NCBI GenBank assembly: GCA_030537835.1
Contig: JAUNVB010000005.1
Location: forward strand, 1-64,000
DNA length: 64,000 nucleotides
From: Andreesenia angusta
GTDB taxonomy: Bacteria > Bacillota > Clostridia > Tissierellales > Gottschalkiaceae
Direction: 5' to 3'
The translations under genes and the position numbers were made by a program. How positions within the stretch are numbered: the first letter of the stretch is position 1; the number at the start of each line of letters is the position of its first letter. The notes below the pieces were generated by a model. That model was given only the letters and a program-made list of their open reading frames with translations, had not been told where the DNA came from and ran no database searches. This document shows positions 35,229-41,050 of this stretch, piece after piece.

Positions 35229-35256
35229 AAAGGATAATGATCGCTCATTATCCTTT
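35229..35256 (-). terminator. Terminator after the Usp-like gene
   Basis: AAAGGATAATGA and TCATTATCCTTT form a perfect 12-bp stem with the loop TCGC. On the minus strand a T-run follows. It overlaps the stop codon of the upstream gene. Confidence 0.85.
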
Positions 35257-35638
35257 ATACTACAATGTATTCAATTGATTTTTTTCTTAATTTCTTTTTC
35301 AATTCTTTAACTATAGGATGATTTTCTACATCCTTAATATTTGGAGATACTCCTAAGACTATATAACCAACATTATTTTTTAAAGCATAATCTGCTAAAG
35401 TCTTGATTACATCATCATCTCTTATAACTGTAAGATCAGCATCTGCTTTTCTAGCTACTGAAAACAAATATTCTAATGCTTCTGAATCACTTTGATCGTA
35501 TAAAAAGTTTTCATGCTCTTTTACTACATTGATAATATACATCTCATCGTATTTATCTTTTAGTTCTACACCTTTTTTAATCAGCTTTTCACAATTTTTC
35601 TGTTGGGTAACACAGACCATCATATTCTTTTTAGTCAA
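35255..35638 (-). CDS. Universal stress protein-like protein
   Basis: 127 residues from TTG 35638, which has AAGGAGAG 7 nt upstream. The start KKNMMVCVTQQKNCEKLIKKG resembles the UspA-like domain of KdpD rather than classic UspA. The C-terminus reads VGYIVLGVSPNIKDVENHPIVKELKK. The classic GxxGSxxx ATP motif is not seen, so nucleotide binding is doubtful. Function unknown; likely a cytosolic stress or regulatory protein. It lies alone between addBA and selC with its own terminator. Confidence 0.75.
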   Translation of the reverse strand: MTKKNMMVCVTQQKNCEKLIKKGVELKDKYDEMYIINVVKEHENFLYDQSDSEALEYLFSVARKADADLTVIRDDDVIKTLADYALKNNVGYIVLGVSPNIKDVENHPIVKELKKKLRKKSIEYIVV

Positions 35639-35742
35639 TTTTCTTCTCTCCTTAAATTCCACTAACAATATATATTGTACCCAAAAAATATTAAATATAT
35701 ATAAAATTTATAATTATCTTTATCTTTTCTCTTATAAAAAAT

Positions 35743-35779: not shown

Positions 35780-35876
35780 TGGCGGGAATGTGTGGGAATC
35801 GAACCCACCTAAGACGCTCTTAACGCCTCACGCTAGTTTTGAAGACTAGAGGGCACACCAGCACCCATCCACTCCC
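35780..35876 (-). tRNA. selC: tRNA-Sec (anticodon TCA)
   Basis: 97 nt with encoded CCA. Minus-strand sequence begins GGGAGTGG and ends TTCCCGCCA, giving the long acceptor stem. The anticodon arm is CTAGT-CTTCAAA-ACTAG with anticodon TCA (plus-strand 35840-35842), followed by a long variable arm (AGCGTGAGGCGTTAAGAGCG) and a T arm GTGGGTTCGATTCCCAC. It decodes UGA as selenocysteine with SelB. It lies downstream of selDAB but has its own promoter. Confidence 0.97.
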
Positions 35877-36020: not shown

Positions 36021-37934
36021 CTAAGATAAAAACCTCTTATCTTCTACTCTCTTCGTTATCTTTCTCTCATCTAATTCTTCGATAATGGCTAAGGCCATCT
36101 TTCTATTCGTATTTAAAATATCCCTAGTCTCTCCTACAGTAATAGAGCCTTTATCTATTATATATTCTTTTATCATAGATACTGCCTTATCGAAAGCCTC
36201 TTTATGAATATAGACATCATCTTTCATCTTTATGATATTACCTAATTCTATAAGTGATTCAAATATCTGTTCAATTTTTTCTCTATTATATTTTTTAGAT
36301 AGATTTTTAATCAAATCTTCTCTCTTTAAAATTATAAAGCTCGAGCTCTGATATTCTTTTTCTATCAATTCTTTTAAATCTTTATCTTCTCCTAAAAATT
36401 CTATTTTAAATTCACTTTTCTGTAATTTATCATCAATTTGTACAATATCTCTCTGTTCAGATATATAAGATATTATCTGTTCTCCAAGTCTTGGTTTTGC
36501 TTTAGATAGATATCTACTTCTTATCTCCTCTTTAGAAATACCATTTCTAAAAGGATATTTCTTATGATATTTCTCTATCTCCTCAGAGATTTTCTCACCT
36601 AGTTTTGAAAGATAATCTATATGAATAATATATTTTTCTTTAGATAGGGAAAAGATTCTAACTAAATTATTCTCCTCTAATTCACTTAAATACTCTTCTA
36701 ACTCCTCTATAGTATTAGAAGTCATAACAGATAAATCCTTTATAGTCGGATATTTATCACTATTTTTCCCTATTATATTTTCTATTACCTCACTCTGATC
36801 TCCTCTTGATTTTATCTCTAGAGCTTCTATAGCTTCACTATCGAATCTCTTTTTCTTAGTAGGATTAGGATCTAATACTTCTCCTCCACCTATTGTCATC
36901 ATAGGTGAATAGAATCTTATTATAAATCTATCCCCTTTTGAAGCTGCAATTCTCTCCTCTAATCTCAATTGAGCGAAGCATTCTTCTCCTGGTGTCAAAT
37001 TCTCTTTATCTAAGATTACGACCCTACATAGAACTTCTTTAGAACCTATATATAGTCTCAATCTAGTTCTATTCTCTATTATTCTCTGTGAATCTTCTAA
37101 TAATTTCAATTTGACATCTAACATCATAGTCGATTCCATAGAATCCGTCAGTGCTATAACATCTCCTCTTTCAATATCATTTTTTTTAACTCCAGAGATA
37201 TTTATAGCTACTCTTTGACCTGCAAATGCTTTTTCCACATCATTTCCATGTACTTGAAGATTCCTTATCTTACCCTCTATATCTTTTGGGTATATTCTTA
37301 TCTGATCCCCTGTACTAAAACTTCCTGATACTAATGTTCCAGTTACAACAGTACCAAAACCAGAGATAGTAAAAACTCTATCTACAGGTAATTTAGGGTT
37401 TCCATAAACCTTTCTATTTTCTGTTTCCTCAACCATTTTTTCTATCTTCTCTTTTAACTCCGGTATTCCACTCTTACTAACAGAATCGACCTCTACTATA
37501 TCTGCATTCTCTAGAAATGTGCCCTCAACAGTCTCCATTATATCTTCTTTTACTAATTCTCTCCATTCATCATCAGTCAATCCACATTTCGTAAGGACTA
37601 TTATACCTCTATCTAATCCTAGAAGATTCAATATATCTAAATGCTCCTTAGTTTGAGGCATTATTCCTTCATCCGATGCAATTATTAATAAAACTATATC
37701 TATCCCTGTAATTCCAGCAAGCATGCTCTTTATGAACTTCTCATGACCAGGCACATCTATAATACCTGCCTTAGTACCATCAGATAGATTAAAATAAGTA
37801 AATCCAAGTTCTATCGATATTCCTCTTTCCTGTTCTTCTTTTAGCCTATCTGTCTGTCTTCCAGTTAAGGCATTTATCAAAGTCGTCTTACCATGATCTA
37901 TATGACCTGCTGTTCCTAATATTATATTCTTCAA
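36021..37934 (-). CDS. selB: Selenocysteine-specific elongation factor SelB
   Basis: 637-residue EF-Tu paralogue that carries Sec-tRNA to the ribosome at UGA/SECIS sites. G domain: GTAGHIDHGKTTLINAL, DVPGHEKFI, LTKCGLTDD. Beta-barrel domains follow (VFTISGFGTVVTGTL), then a C-terminal run of winged helices (about 380-637) that binds the SECIS hairpin. Only 3 nt separate it from selA. Confidence 0.97.
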   Translation of the reverse strand: MKNIILGTAGHIDHGKTTLINALTGRQTDRLKEEQERGISIELGFTYFNLSDGTKAGIIDVPGHEKFIKSMLAGITGIDIVLLIIASDEGIMPQTKEHLDILNLLGLDRGIIVLTKCGLTDDEWRELVKEDIMETVEGTFLENADIVEVDSVSKSGIPELKEKIEKMVEETENRKVYGNPKLPVDRVFTISGFGTVVTGTLVSGSFSTGDQIRIYPKDIEGKIRNLQVHGNDVEKAFAGQRVAINISGVKKNDIERGDVIALTDSMESTMMLDVKLKLLEDSQRIIENRTRLRLYIGSKEVLCRVVILDKENLTPGEECFAQLRLEERIAASKGDRFIIRFYSPMMTIGGGEVLDPNPTKKKRFDSEAIEALEIKSRGDQSEVIENIIGKNSDKYPTIKDLSVMTSNTIEELEEYLSELEENNLVRIFSLSKEKYIIHIDYLSKLGEKISEEIEKYHKKYPFRNGISKEEIRSRYLSKAKPRLGEQIISYISEQRDIVQIDDKLQKSEFKIEFLGEDKDLKELIEKEYQSSSFIILKREDLIKNLSKKYNREKIEQIFESLIELGNIIKMKDDVYIHKEAFDKAVSMIKEYIIDKGSITVGETRDILNTNRKMALAIIEELDERKITKRVEDKRFLS

Positions 37935-37937
37935 CGA

Positions 37938-39335
37938 TTACACCTCATTCAATGCTTTTTCAAATTCCTTTGCCATACCTTCTATCTGCTCATCAAAAAC
38001 AGTTCTAAAATCTAGATATAGGCTCTCTTTATATATTCTTCCAATTATAGGTGTTTCTAACTCTCTCAAACTCTTTTCAAATCTAGATATCTTTATAATA
38101 TCTGAACTGATTTTTACTGATCTACTCTCTAATCTTTCAAGTGGCATTGAACCTCCACCAACTTGAGAATAGTCTTTTACTATTTGAATATCTAATTTAT
38201 CTTTTGTACTATCATCTATTAATTTCATAAATCTAAAAGCCTTATCTTCTATCTCTTCTACATCCTGTACTATCATCTTAATAGTCGGTATTTTCTCTAT
38301 AGCCTTCTCTTCATCTATATAATACCTAAGAGTCGACTCTAATGCTGATATAGTGAATTTATCGATTCTAAAAGCTCTATTAAGAGGATGTCTTTTCATC
38401 TGATCAATATATTCGCTCTTTCCAACTATTATTCCAGCTTGTGGCCCTCCTAATAATTTATCTCCACTGAAAGTAATTATATCAACACCAGCTTTAACTG
38501 ATTCCTGAACAGTAGGCTCATATTCTAATCCATATCTAGATAGATCTATTAATACACCACTTCCTAAATCTTCTATAACTGGAATGGATTCTTCTCTTCC
38601 TAATTTTACTAAATCTTCTAAAGAAACATTATCTGTGAATCCAACTATTCTATAATTGCTAGTATGAACTTTAAGTAAAGCTCCTGTATCTTCATTTATA
38701 GCTCTTTGATAGTCGGATATATGAGTCTTATTAGTAGCACCTACTTCCACTAATTTTGCACCACTTTGTTCCATCACTTCTGGAATTCTAAAGGAGCCAC
38801 CTATTTCTACTAATTCACCTCTAGATGTTATAACTTCCTTACCATCACCCCATGAAGAAAGTGCAAGGATTACGGCTGCAGCATTATTATTCACTACTAA
38901 TGCATCTTCAGCTCCTGTAATTCTCTTTATCAGATCTACTATACTATCGTATCTAGAACCTCTTTTTCCCGTCTCTAAATCATATTCTAAATTCGTATAA
39001 TATCTGGCCATATTAGCTATATGAGATATAGTGTCTTCATTCATAAGTGATCTCCCTAGATTAGTATGAATTACTGTTCCCGTTGCATTTATTACATTCT
39101 TCAATTTGAATTCATAAGCCTTTTCCACTCTATCTATCGTCTTTTTCACTAGACTATCTATATCAAAATCTTTTTCCTCTACATCTTTTTCTCTTATTTT
39201 CTGTCTTAAACTATCTAGATTTTCTCTTATAATTTCAACTACAATATCTCTAGATCTCTTATCTATTAAATTTTTTATTCTATTATCTTCAATTATCTGA
39301 TCAACTTTCGGTATCTTACTATATAGATTTTTCAA
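37938..39335 (-). CDS. selA: L-seryl-tRNA(Sec) selenium transferase
   Basis: 465-residue PLP enzyme that converts Ser-tRNA(Sec) to Sec-tRNA(Sec) using selenophosphate. The PLP Lys is in ITFSGDKLLGGPQAGI. The N-terminal helical domain (IPKVDQIIEDNRIKNLIDKRSRDIVVEIIRENL) and INATGTVIHTNLGRS are typical. TTG start. Between selD (18-nt gap) and selB. Confidence 0.97.
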   Translation of the reverse strand: MKNLYSKIPKVDQIIEDNRIKNLIDKRSRDIVVEIIRENLDSLRQKIREKDVEEKDFDIDSLVKKTIDRVEKAYEFKLKNVINATGTVIHTNLGRSLMNEDTISHIANMARYYTNLEYDLETGKRGSRYDSIVDLIKRITGAEDALVVNNNAAAVILALSSWGDGKEVITSRGELVEIGGSFRIPEVMEQSGAKLVEVGATNKTHISDYQRAINEDTGALLKVHTSNYRIVGFTDNVSLEDLVKLGREESIPVIEDLGSGVLIDLSRYGLEYEPTVQESVKAGVDIITFSGDKLLGGPQAGIIVGKSEYIDQMKRHPLNRAFRIDKFTISALESTLRYYIDEEKAIEKIPTIKMIVQDVEEIEDKAFRFMKLIDDSTKDKLDIQIVKDYSQVGGGSMPLERLESRSVKISSDIIKISRFEKSLRELETPIIGRIYKESLYLDFRTVFDEQIEGMAKEFEKALNEV

Positions 39336-39353
39336 AATTACACCACCTAATAT

Positions 39354-40391
39354 CTATTTAACTATTAAACTCTTCTCACCTTTTTTCTCTACTCGACCAA
39401 TTACTGCATACTTTGTAGGGCTTTTTTCTAATTCTTTTAATAATTCATCTAATCTATTTTCATCAACAGATATCATAAGTCCGCCTGAAGTCTGAGGATC
39501 ATAGAGCATATCTTTTATCTCTCTTTTCACAGAGTCTGAAAAATTTACTTTATCCCCAATGAATTTTTCATTAGCATAAGTTCCCTCAGGAACGAGTCCA
39601 AGTCTTGCAAGTTCGACAGCTCCATCTATTAGTGGAATTCTATCCGAGTCAAGAACTATGGTCTTATCACTTCCCTCAGCCATTTCTAATGCATGTCCTA
39701 AAAGCCCAAATCCAGTTATATCAGTACATGCATTGACACCGACTCTATTCATAGCTTCCATAGCAAATTTATTTAATGTAGTCATATTTTTAACGGCTTC
39801 ATCATATACTTGCTCTTCTACTATATCTCCTTTTATAGCAGAGTTTATAATTCCAAGTCCTAATGGCTTTGTCAGAACTAATATATCTCCTTCTTTAGCA
39901 TCGCTGTTTTTTATGACTTTATCTGGATTTACAAAACCTACTGCACATAATCCATACTTAGGTTCATCGTCCTGAACAGTATGACCTCCTACTAATATAG
40001 CTCCTGCTTCTAAAATCTTATCATGTCCACCTTTTAATATTTCAGCCATTATATCTGGACTTAAACAGTTCGGAAAACATATTAAGTTCATAGCTAGCTT
40101 AGGATTAGTTCCCATAGCATAGACATCAGATAGTGAATTTGCAACTGCTATCTGACCATAGACGAAAGGATCATCTACTACTGGTGTGAAAAAATCAACA
40201 GTTATTACCATAGCTTCTTCATCATTTATTTTATATACTGCCGCATCATCGGAAGTTTCTATTCCAACTAATAAATTCTCATCTCTTTCTACATTCGGTA
40301 ATTGACACAGAACCTGTGCCAAGGTATCAGGACCTATTTTCGCAGCTCATCCTGATGTCTTAGTCATTTGAGTAAGTCTTTTTTCTTCCAA
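39354..40391 (-). CDS. selD: Selenide, water dikinase SelD, a selenoprotein (TGA = Sec)
   Basis: 345 residues including selenocysteine. SelD makes selenophosphate from selenide and ATP. The frame runs through TGA at plus-strand 40347-40349 (codon 15): LTQMTKTSG-U-AAKIGPDTLAQVL. This is the SelD active-site loop, normally Cys or Sec, followed by the essential Lys. TTG 40391 is used, with AGGGGG 8 nt upstream. A call that treats TGA as stop would begin near 40322 and lose the catalytic residue. ETSDDAAVYKI, VGGHTVQDDEPKYG and ACTDITGFGLLGHALEMA follow as in the family. 17 nt after comEA, first of selDAB. Confidence 0.96.
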
Positions 40392-40408
40392 ATCTATATC
40401 CCCCTATT

Positions 40409-41050
40409 TCATCTAACTTTTATATAGTCTTTCAATGATTCGAATTTTTTCTCTCCAATTCCATTTACCTGCATAATATCTTCTATACTTTCAAATTTCT
40501 TTTCTTCTCTATATTCAATAATTTTATTAGCCGTCGCTTCTCCTACACCATCTAATTCCATCAATTCTTCCTTAGTAGCAGAATTAATATTTATAGTTTT
40601 CTTATCCGAATCAGTTCCTAGATTATTTTGTATTAATTCCTCTCTTATTTCTAAATTTTCTCCTATATTAGGTATATAAATCATCTCTTCATCTTCTACT
40701 ATTTTTGCTAGATTTACAGAATTCATATCTGCATTTTCTGTAAAACCTCCTGCAAGCTCTATAATGTCTATAATTCTACTCTCTTCTCTTGCATGAACAA
40801 TCCCAGGATTATTTACAGCACCCTTTACATCTACTATTATACTATCTAGGTTATAGGAATTGTCACTCAATTGACTATCATCTTTTTCTATACTTTTTTT
40901 ATCATCTATAGGAAATTTTAATTCACTTTCTTGATATGCTTCAATTTCATTTTCTCTATCACTCATTTTGAAATAAAAAAATACGCTTATCAAACCTAAT
41001 ATTAGTATAGCTATTTGTTTGTTCTTTGTAAAGTTTTTCAAATTATCCAC
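40409..41050 (-). CDS. comEA: Competence protein ComEA (helix-hairpin-helix DNA receptor)
   Basis: 213 residues. An N-terminal membrane anchor (about 11-28), a low-complexity acidic linker, an SLBB domain (about 70-135; VDVKGAVNNPGIVHAREESRIIDIIELAGGF), and a C-terminal double helix-hairpin-helix (ININSATKEELMELDGVGEATANKIIEYR). Binds DNA at the cell surface and passes it to ComEC. Just upstream of selD, so the two may share a transcript without sharing a function. Confidence 0.93.
   Translation of the reverse strand: MDNLKNFTKNKQIAILILGLISVFFYFKMSDRENEIEAYQESELKFPIDDKKSIEKDDSQLSDNSYNLDSIIVDVKGAVNNPGIVHAREESRIIDIIELAGGFTENADMNSVNLAKIVEDEEMIYIPNIGENLEIREELIQNNLGTDSDKKTININSATKEELMELDGVGEATANKIIEYREEKKFESIEDIMQVNGIGEKKFESLKDYIKVR

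Follow-up and report, generated by a model that had tools for sequence, protein, structure and literature searches.

A Sec-type selD gene in Andreesenia angusta and the varying position of its SECIS hairpin among clostridial relatives

Known Sec-containing SelD proteins and the locus in A. angusta

Among bacterial selenoproteins, selenocysteine (Sec)-containing SelD and FdhA have been catalogued as the two most widespread, with discussion of cases in which SelD is the only one (Zhang et al., 2006; PMC1794560). Sec is carried by 19% of the prokaryotic SelD proteins in a reference set, always at the same position, and the bacterial SECIS element (bSECIS) of SelD has been recovered by RNAz (Mariotti et al., 2015; PMC4561486). 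The bSECIS model describes a stem of 4-16 bp and a loop of 3-9 nt with a G in its first two bases, the loop lying 16-37 nt after the UGA (PMC13188914). The SelD analyzed here is encoded in a 64,000-nucleotide stretch of Andreesenia angusta DNA (the window). It is already known in kind, its type being documented in PMC1794560, PMC4561486, and PMC13188914, and the arrangement of the locus is long known and common in this bacterial group. We found no substantial difference from the Sec-containing bacterial SelD/SPS2 (PMC1794560; PMC4561486), with which it shares the family, the Sec position, the downstream bSECIS, and the presence of selA, selB, and tRNA-Sec. It also shares its fold family and the active-site loop RLTQ...G-[C/U]-xxK with E. 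coli SelD (PDB 3u0o), which, however, has Cys17 where the window's protein has Sec15 and involves no UGA recoding in selD. The features of the locus are as follows:

39354..40391, minus strand: selD, selenide water dikinase, 345 aa with Sec as residue 15; TTG start, TAG stop (TIGR00476, 389.9 bits; alignment to PDB 3u0o)
40347..40349, minus strand: in-frame TGA, Sec15, opposite Cys17 of E. coli SelD (frame reading, alignment, locus comparison)
40400..40405, minus strand: Shine-Dalgarno-like AGGGGG, 8 nt 5' of TTG 40391 (read directly)
40302..40322, minus strand: bSECIS hairpin UUGGCACAG-GUU-CUGUGUCAA, 9 bp, apical loop 40313-40311, 33 nt after the UGA (folding, covariation)
37938..39335, minus strand: selA, L-seryl-tRNA(Sec) selenium transferase (TIGR00474, 625.9 bits)
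36021..37934, minus strand: selB, Sec-specific elongation factor with C-terminal winged-helix domains (TIGR00475; PF09106, PF09107)
35780..35876, minus strand: tRNA-Sec, anticodon UCA (RF01852, 72.2 bits)

The selD frame runs on the minus strand from TTG 40391-40389 through a single TGA (40349-40347) to TAG 39356-39354. The protein begins MEEKRLTQMTKTSG-U-AAKIGPDTLAQVL, and the peptide spanning the TGA is RLTQMTKTSG-U-AAKIGPDTLAQVL. The start, the TGA, the loop peptide, and the AGGGGG site had been named in an earlier sequence-only reading, and all are borne out by the letters themselves; the span 40322-40391 given there covers the N-terminal part of a gene that continues to 39354. Over residues 5-312 the protein matches the SelD profile well above its curated cut-off of 125 bits, and it also matches Pfam AIRS/AIRS_C. 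In the alignment with 3u0o, Sec15 and Lys18 fall opposite the E. coli Cys17 and Lys20, so that the TGA occupies the conserved Cys/Sec column with homology on both sides. The protein is 66-70% identical to the Sec-SelD of relatives in the same family and genus. As that reading had also warned, mechanical ORF calling takes TTG 40322 as the start codon, giving 322 aa that lack the catalytic loop. For annotation, the selD start is therefore TTG 40391 with Sec15, since standard calling loses the first 23 residues. A ComEA-like protein (SLBB plus helix-hairpin-helix) is encoded upstream at 40409-41050 on the same strand, ending 17 nt 5' of the selD start, and the two genes possibly share a transcript.

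Conservation of the TGA and a covarying hairpin

We compared the codon at residue 15 across 110 loci mapped by tblastn and found TGA in 108 and TGT in 2. In the loci read, the residues before the TGA are conserved as protein (RLTxxTKSSG). At E <= 1e-40, SelD is matched in 166 of 199 genomes of the same order. Most of the matches listed, including those from genomes of the same genus and family, have exactly one internal TGA. Because the TGA and the residues preceding it are conserved across these loci, and a single internal TGA recurs in the order, its presence is not due to chance. A Cys codon (TGT) is found in relatives L051, L109, L119, and L120, the latter two at 54% identity. A divergent Cys-type SelD (M-LEVCGGCNAKI..., approximately 40-43% identity) occurs in L121, L122, L123, and further genomes from a single family within the order, many members of which have it in place of the Sec type. 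In genome G143, the selD copy has its reading frame interrupted between residues 66 and 71.

Strong additional support for the Sec reading comes from a covarying bSECIS hairpin that the sequence-only reading did not mention. With 9 bp, a GUU loop, and a distance of 33 nt, it agrees with the bSECIS model (PMC13188914), sharing the 3-nt loop that starts with G-U and having both stem and spacing in range, the spacing lying towards the far end. A single-sequence fold recovers the hairpin, although the region's advantage over shuffles is modest (z -1.15), and the case therefore rests on the comparison between species. Among 34 distinct sequences, 89.5% of cells are paired compared with 75.4% in shuffled alignments, and the covariation score is 0.454 compared with 0.174, with 0 of 500 shuffles as high for either measure. 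The signal peaks at the true register alone and is abolished when the partner is shifted by 1-3 columns, and RNAalifold returns the same helix unprompted. One pair (33-43), formed by the wobble base of codon 25 and the first base of codon 29, is seen as A-U, G-C, C-G, and U-A, and the residue at protein position 29 (Cys, Arg, Gly, or Ser) appears to follow pairing with the codon 25 wobble base. Coding constraint was addressed with protein-preserving recodings: none of 500 random synonymous recodings of the window's selD reach 9 pairs, and the 90 Sec genes that carry a QVL/EVL motif form 8.3 of 9 pairs against a null of 5.8. In contrast, the two TGT genes tested form 2.5 of 9 pairs (2-3) against a null of 2.9, such that their hairpin does not exceed the null.

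Taken together, these observations make it nearly certain that this selD is active and of the ordinary Sec type, with decoding and catalysis inferred from the known pathway, in line with the earlier claim that SelD is itself a selenoprotein. We consider it extremely improbable that the TGA is a true stop and that a shorter SelD starts at TTG 40322. Mechanical ORF calling does return such a protein, but the Cys/Sec and Lys that are essential would be missing from it, and its supposed start codon opens the 5' arm of the SECIS hairpin. The residues encoded ahead of the TGA are also conserved, and no homologue among the 110 loci starts after the TGA position. We attach equally little weight to a pseudogene, or to a TGA that is a sequencing error for the Cys codon TGT or TGC: Cys forms do exist in the four TGT relatives, yet the same TGA is present in independent genomes of the genus, family, and order, and the covarying hairpin is intact here (9/9 pairs), whereas it is at null level in two TGT relatives. 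Reading of the UGA as Trp, or by near-cognate suppression, is very unlikely as well. Readthrough without Sec has been described for insect SPS1-UGA (PMC4561486), but here tRNA-Sec, SelA, and SelB are encoded alongside, a bSECIS is present, UGA terminates other genes (comEA, at TGA 40411-40409), and UGA is replaced by Cys alone in the relatives read.

Sec machinery and other predicted selenoproteins of the genome

The Sec reading of selD is matched by its neighbors, as selA, selB, and tRNA-Sec lie directly 3' of the gene in the same direction (39335-37938, 37934-36021, and 35876-35780), adjoining it as previously proposed. No second SelD was detected by family searches of the genome (a 54-contig draft with 97.7% completeness). 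The only other AIRS match, L002, has no catalytic loop, and its best-scoring family is HypE, whose cut-off it does not reach. A 137-aa protein encoded between tRNA-Sec and an addB-like gene (35255-35668, minus strand) shows weak similarity to the KdpD sensor family (non-kinase) and has no Pfam match. No other candidate for TGA read-through stood out when the list for the window was inspected by eye.

We sampled the selenoproteome by family searches and found glycine reductase A (GrdA) with one in-frame TGA, two copies of glycine reductase B (GrdB) in which a TGA falls within the C-terminal TSTUGTC site, slightly past the Pfam match, and two formate dehydrogenases (FdhA) with one TGA each, one of which reads CARTUHAPT. 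GrdA, the two GrdB, and FdhA (L113-L115 on contigs C15 and C21, and L118) carry the TGA at known Sec sites, the FdhA of L117 being known by TGA count alone. These genes rule out SelD as the sole selenoprotein of the genome, and Sec decoding is therefore needed beyond SelD. A simple hairpin scan revealed clear SECIS-like hairpins in GrdB and FdhA, with loops 18-19 nt after the UGA compared with 33 nt in selD; the hairpin of GrdA was not obvious. The genome also encodes the selenouridine synthase MnmH.

Based on the known pathway, we propose that translation would begin at TTG 40391 and that the UGA at 40349-40347 would be decoded by SelB-GTP-Sec-tRNA(Sec) bound at the 40322-40302 hairpin, placing Sec at the position of Cys17 in E. 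coli SelD. SelD would then convert selenide and ATP to selenophosphate, from which the neighboring SelA would make Sec-tRNA(Sec), so that SelD would supply its own active site with selenium. The same supply would serve the predicted GrdA, GrdB, and FdhA, as well as the selenouridine made by MnmH.

Position of the SECIS hairpin among clostridial selD genes

In 83 TGA genes, the loop of the best hairpin lies 33 nt after the UGA, and this far hairpin is found in Tissierellales-like genomes and Lachnospiraceae. A near candidate in the window (GGU..ACC, 40334-40323) was rejected as the SECIS of far-type sequences, where its covariation is no better than that of shuffles. In a Clostridiaceae clade of 18 members, the loop lies about 16 nt (15-17) after the UGA. 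Among 20 near-type sequences, the near hairpin has 95% of its cells paired, a level reached by 0 of 500 shuffles; for the far hairpin, the figure in near-type Clostridiaceae sequences is only 50.6%. A Parvimonas clade has its loop approximately 20 nt after the UGA, with the consensus G absent from the first two loop positions, and in Desulforamulus and relatives (Desulfotomaculaceae-type) the near and far hairpins are both possible. Differing offsets were recorded at loci L040-L104 (Clostridiaceae), L035, L038, L041, L125, L052, L053, L055, and L081. When far and near types are mapped on a quick SelD tree that leaves out the N-terminal ~50 residues, about four changes are required, a rough number given several long branches. 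We lean towards the view that the SECIS moved along orthologous selD genes with the UGA fixed, the dual-hairpin Desulfotomaculaceae-type lineages looking intermediate.

Since the hairpin spacings of selD and of FdhA and GrdB differ within one genome, a single SelB presumably serves distances from 18 to 33 nt in A. angusta. A limited search of the literature, covering main texts, returned no description of SECIS re-siting, and the clade-dependent SECIS distance among clostridial selD genes may be less known than the Sec-type SelD itself. Overall, the window's selD is one more case of the long-recognized self-dependent SelD loop, and the shifting position of its SECIS provides a possible natural series for testing the tolerance of SelB to different UGA-to-hairpin distances.
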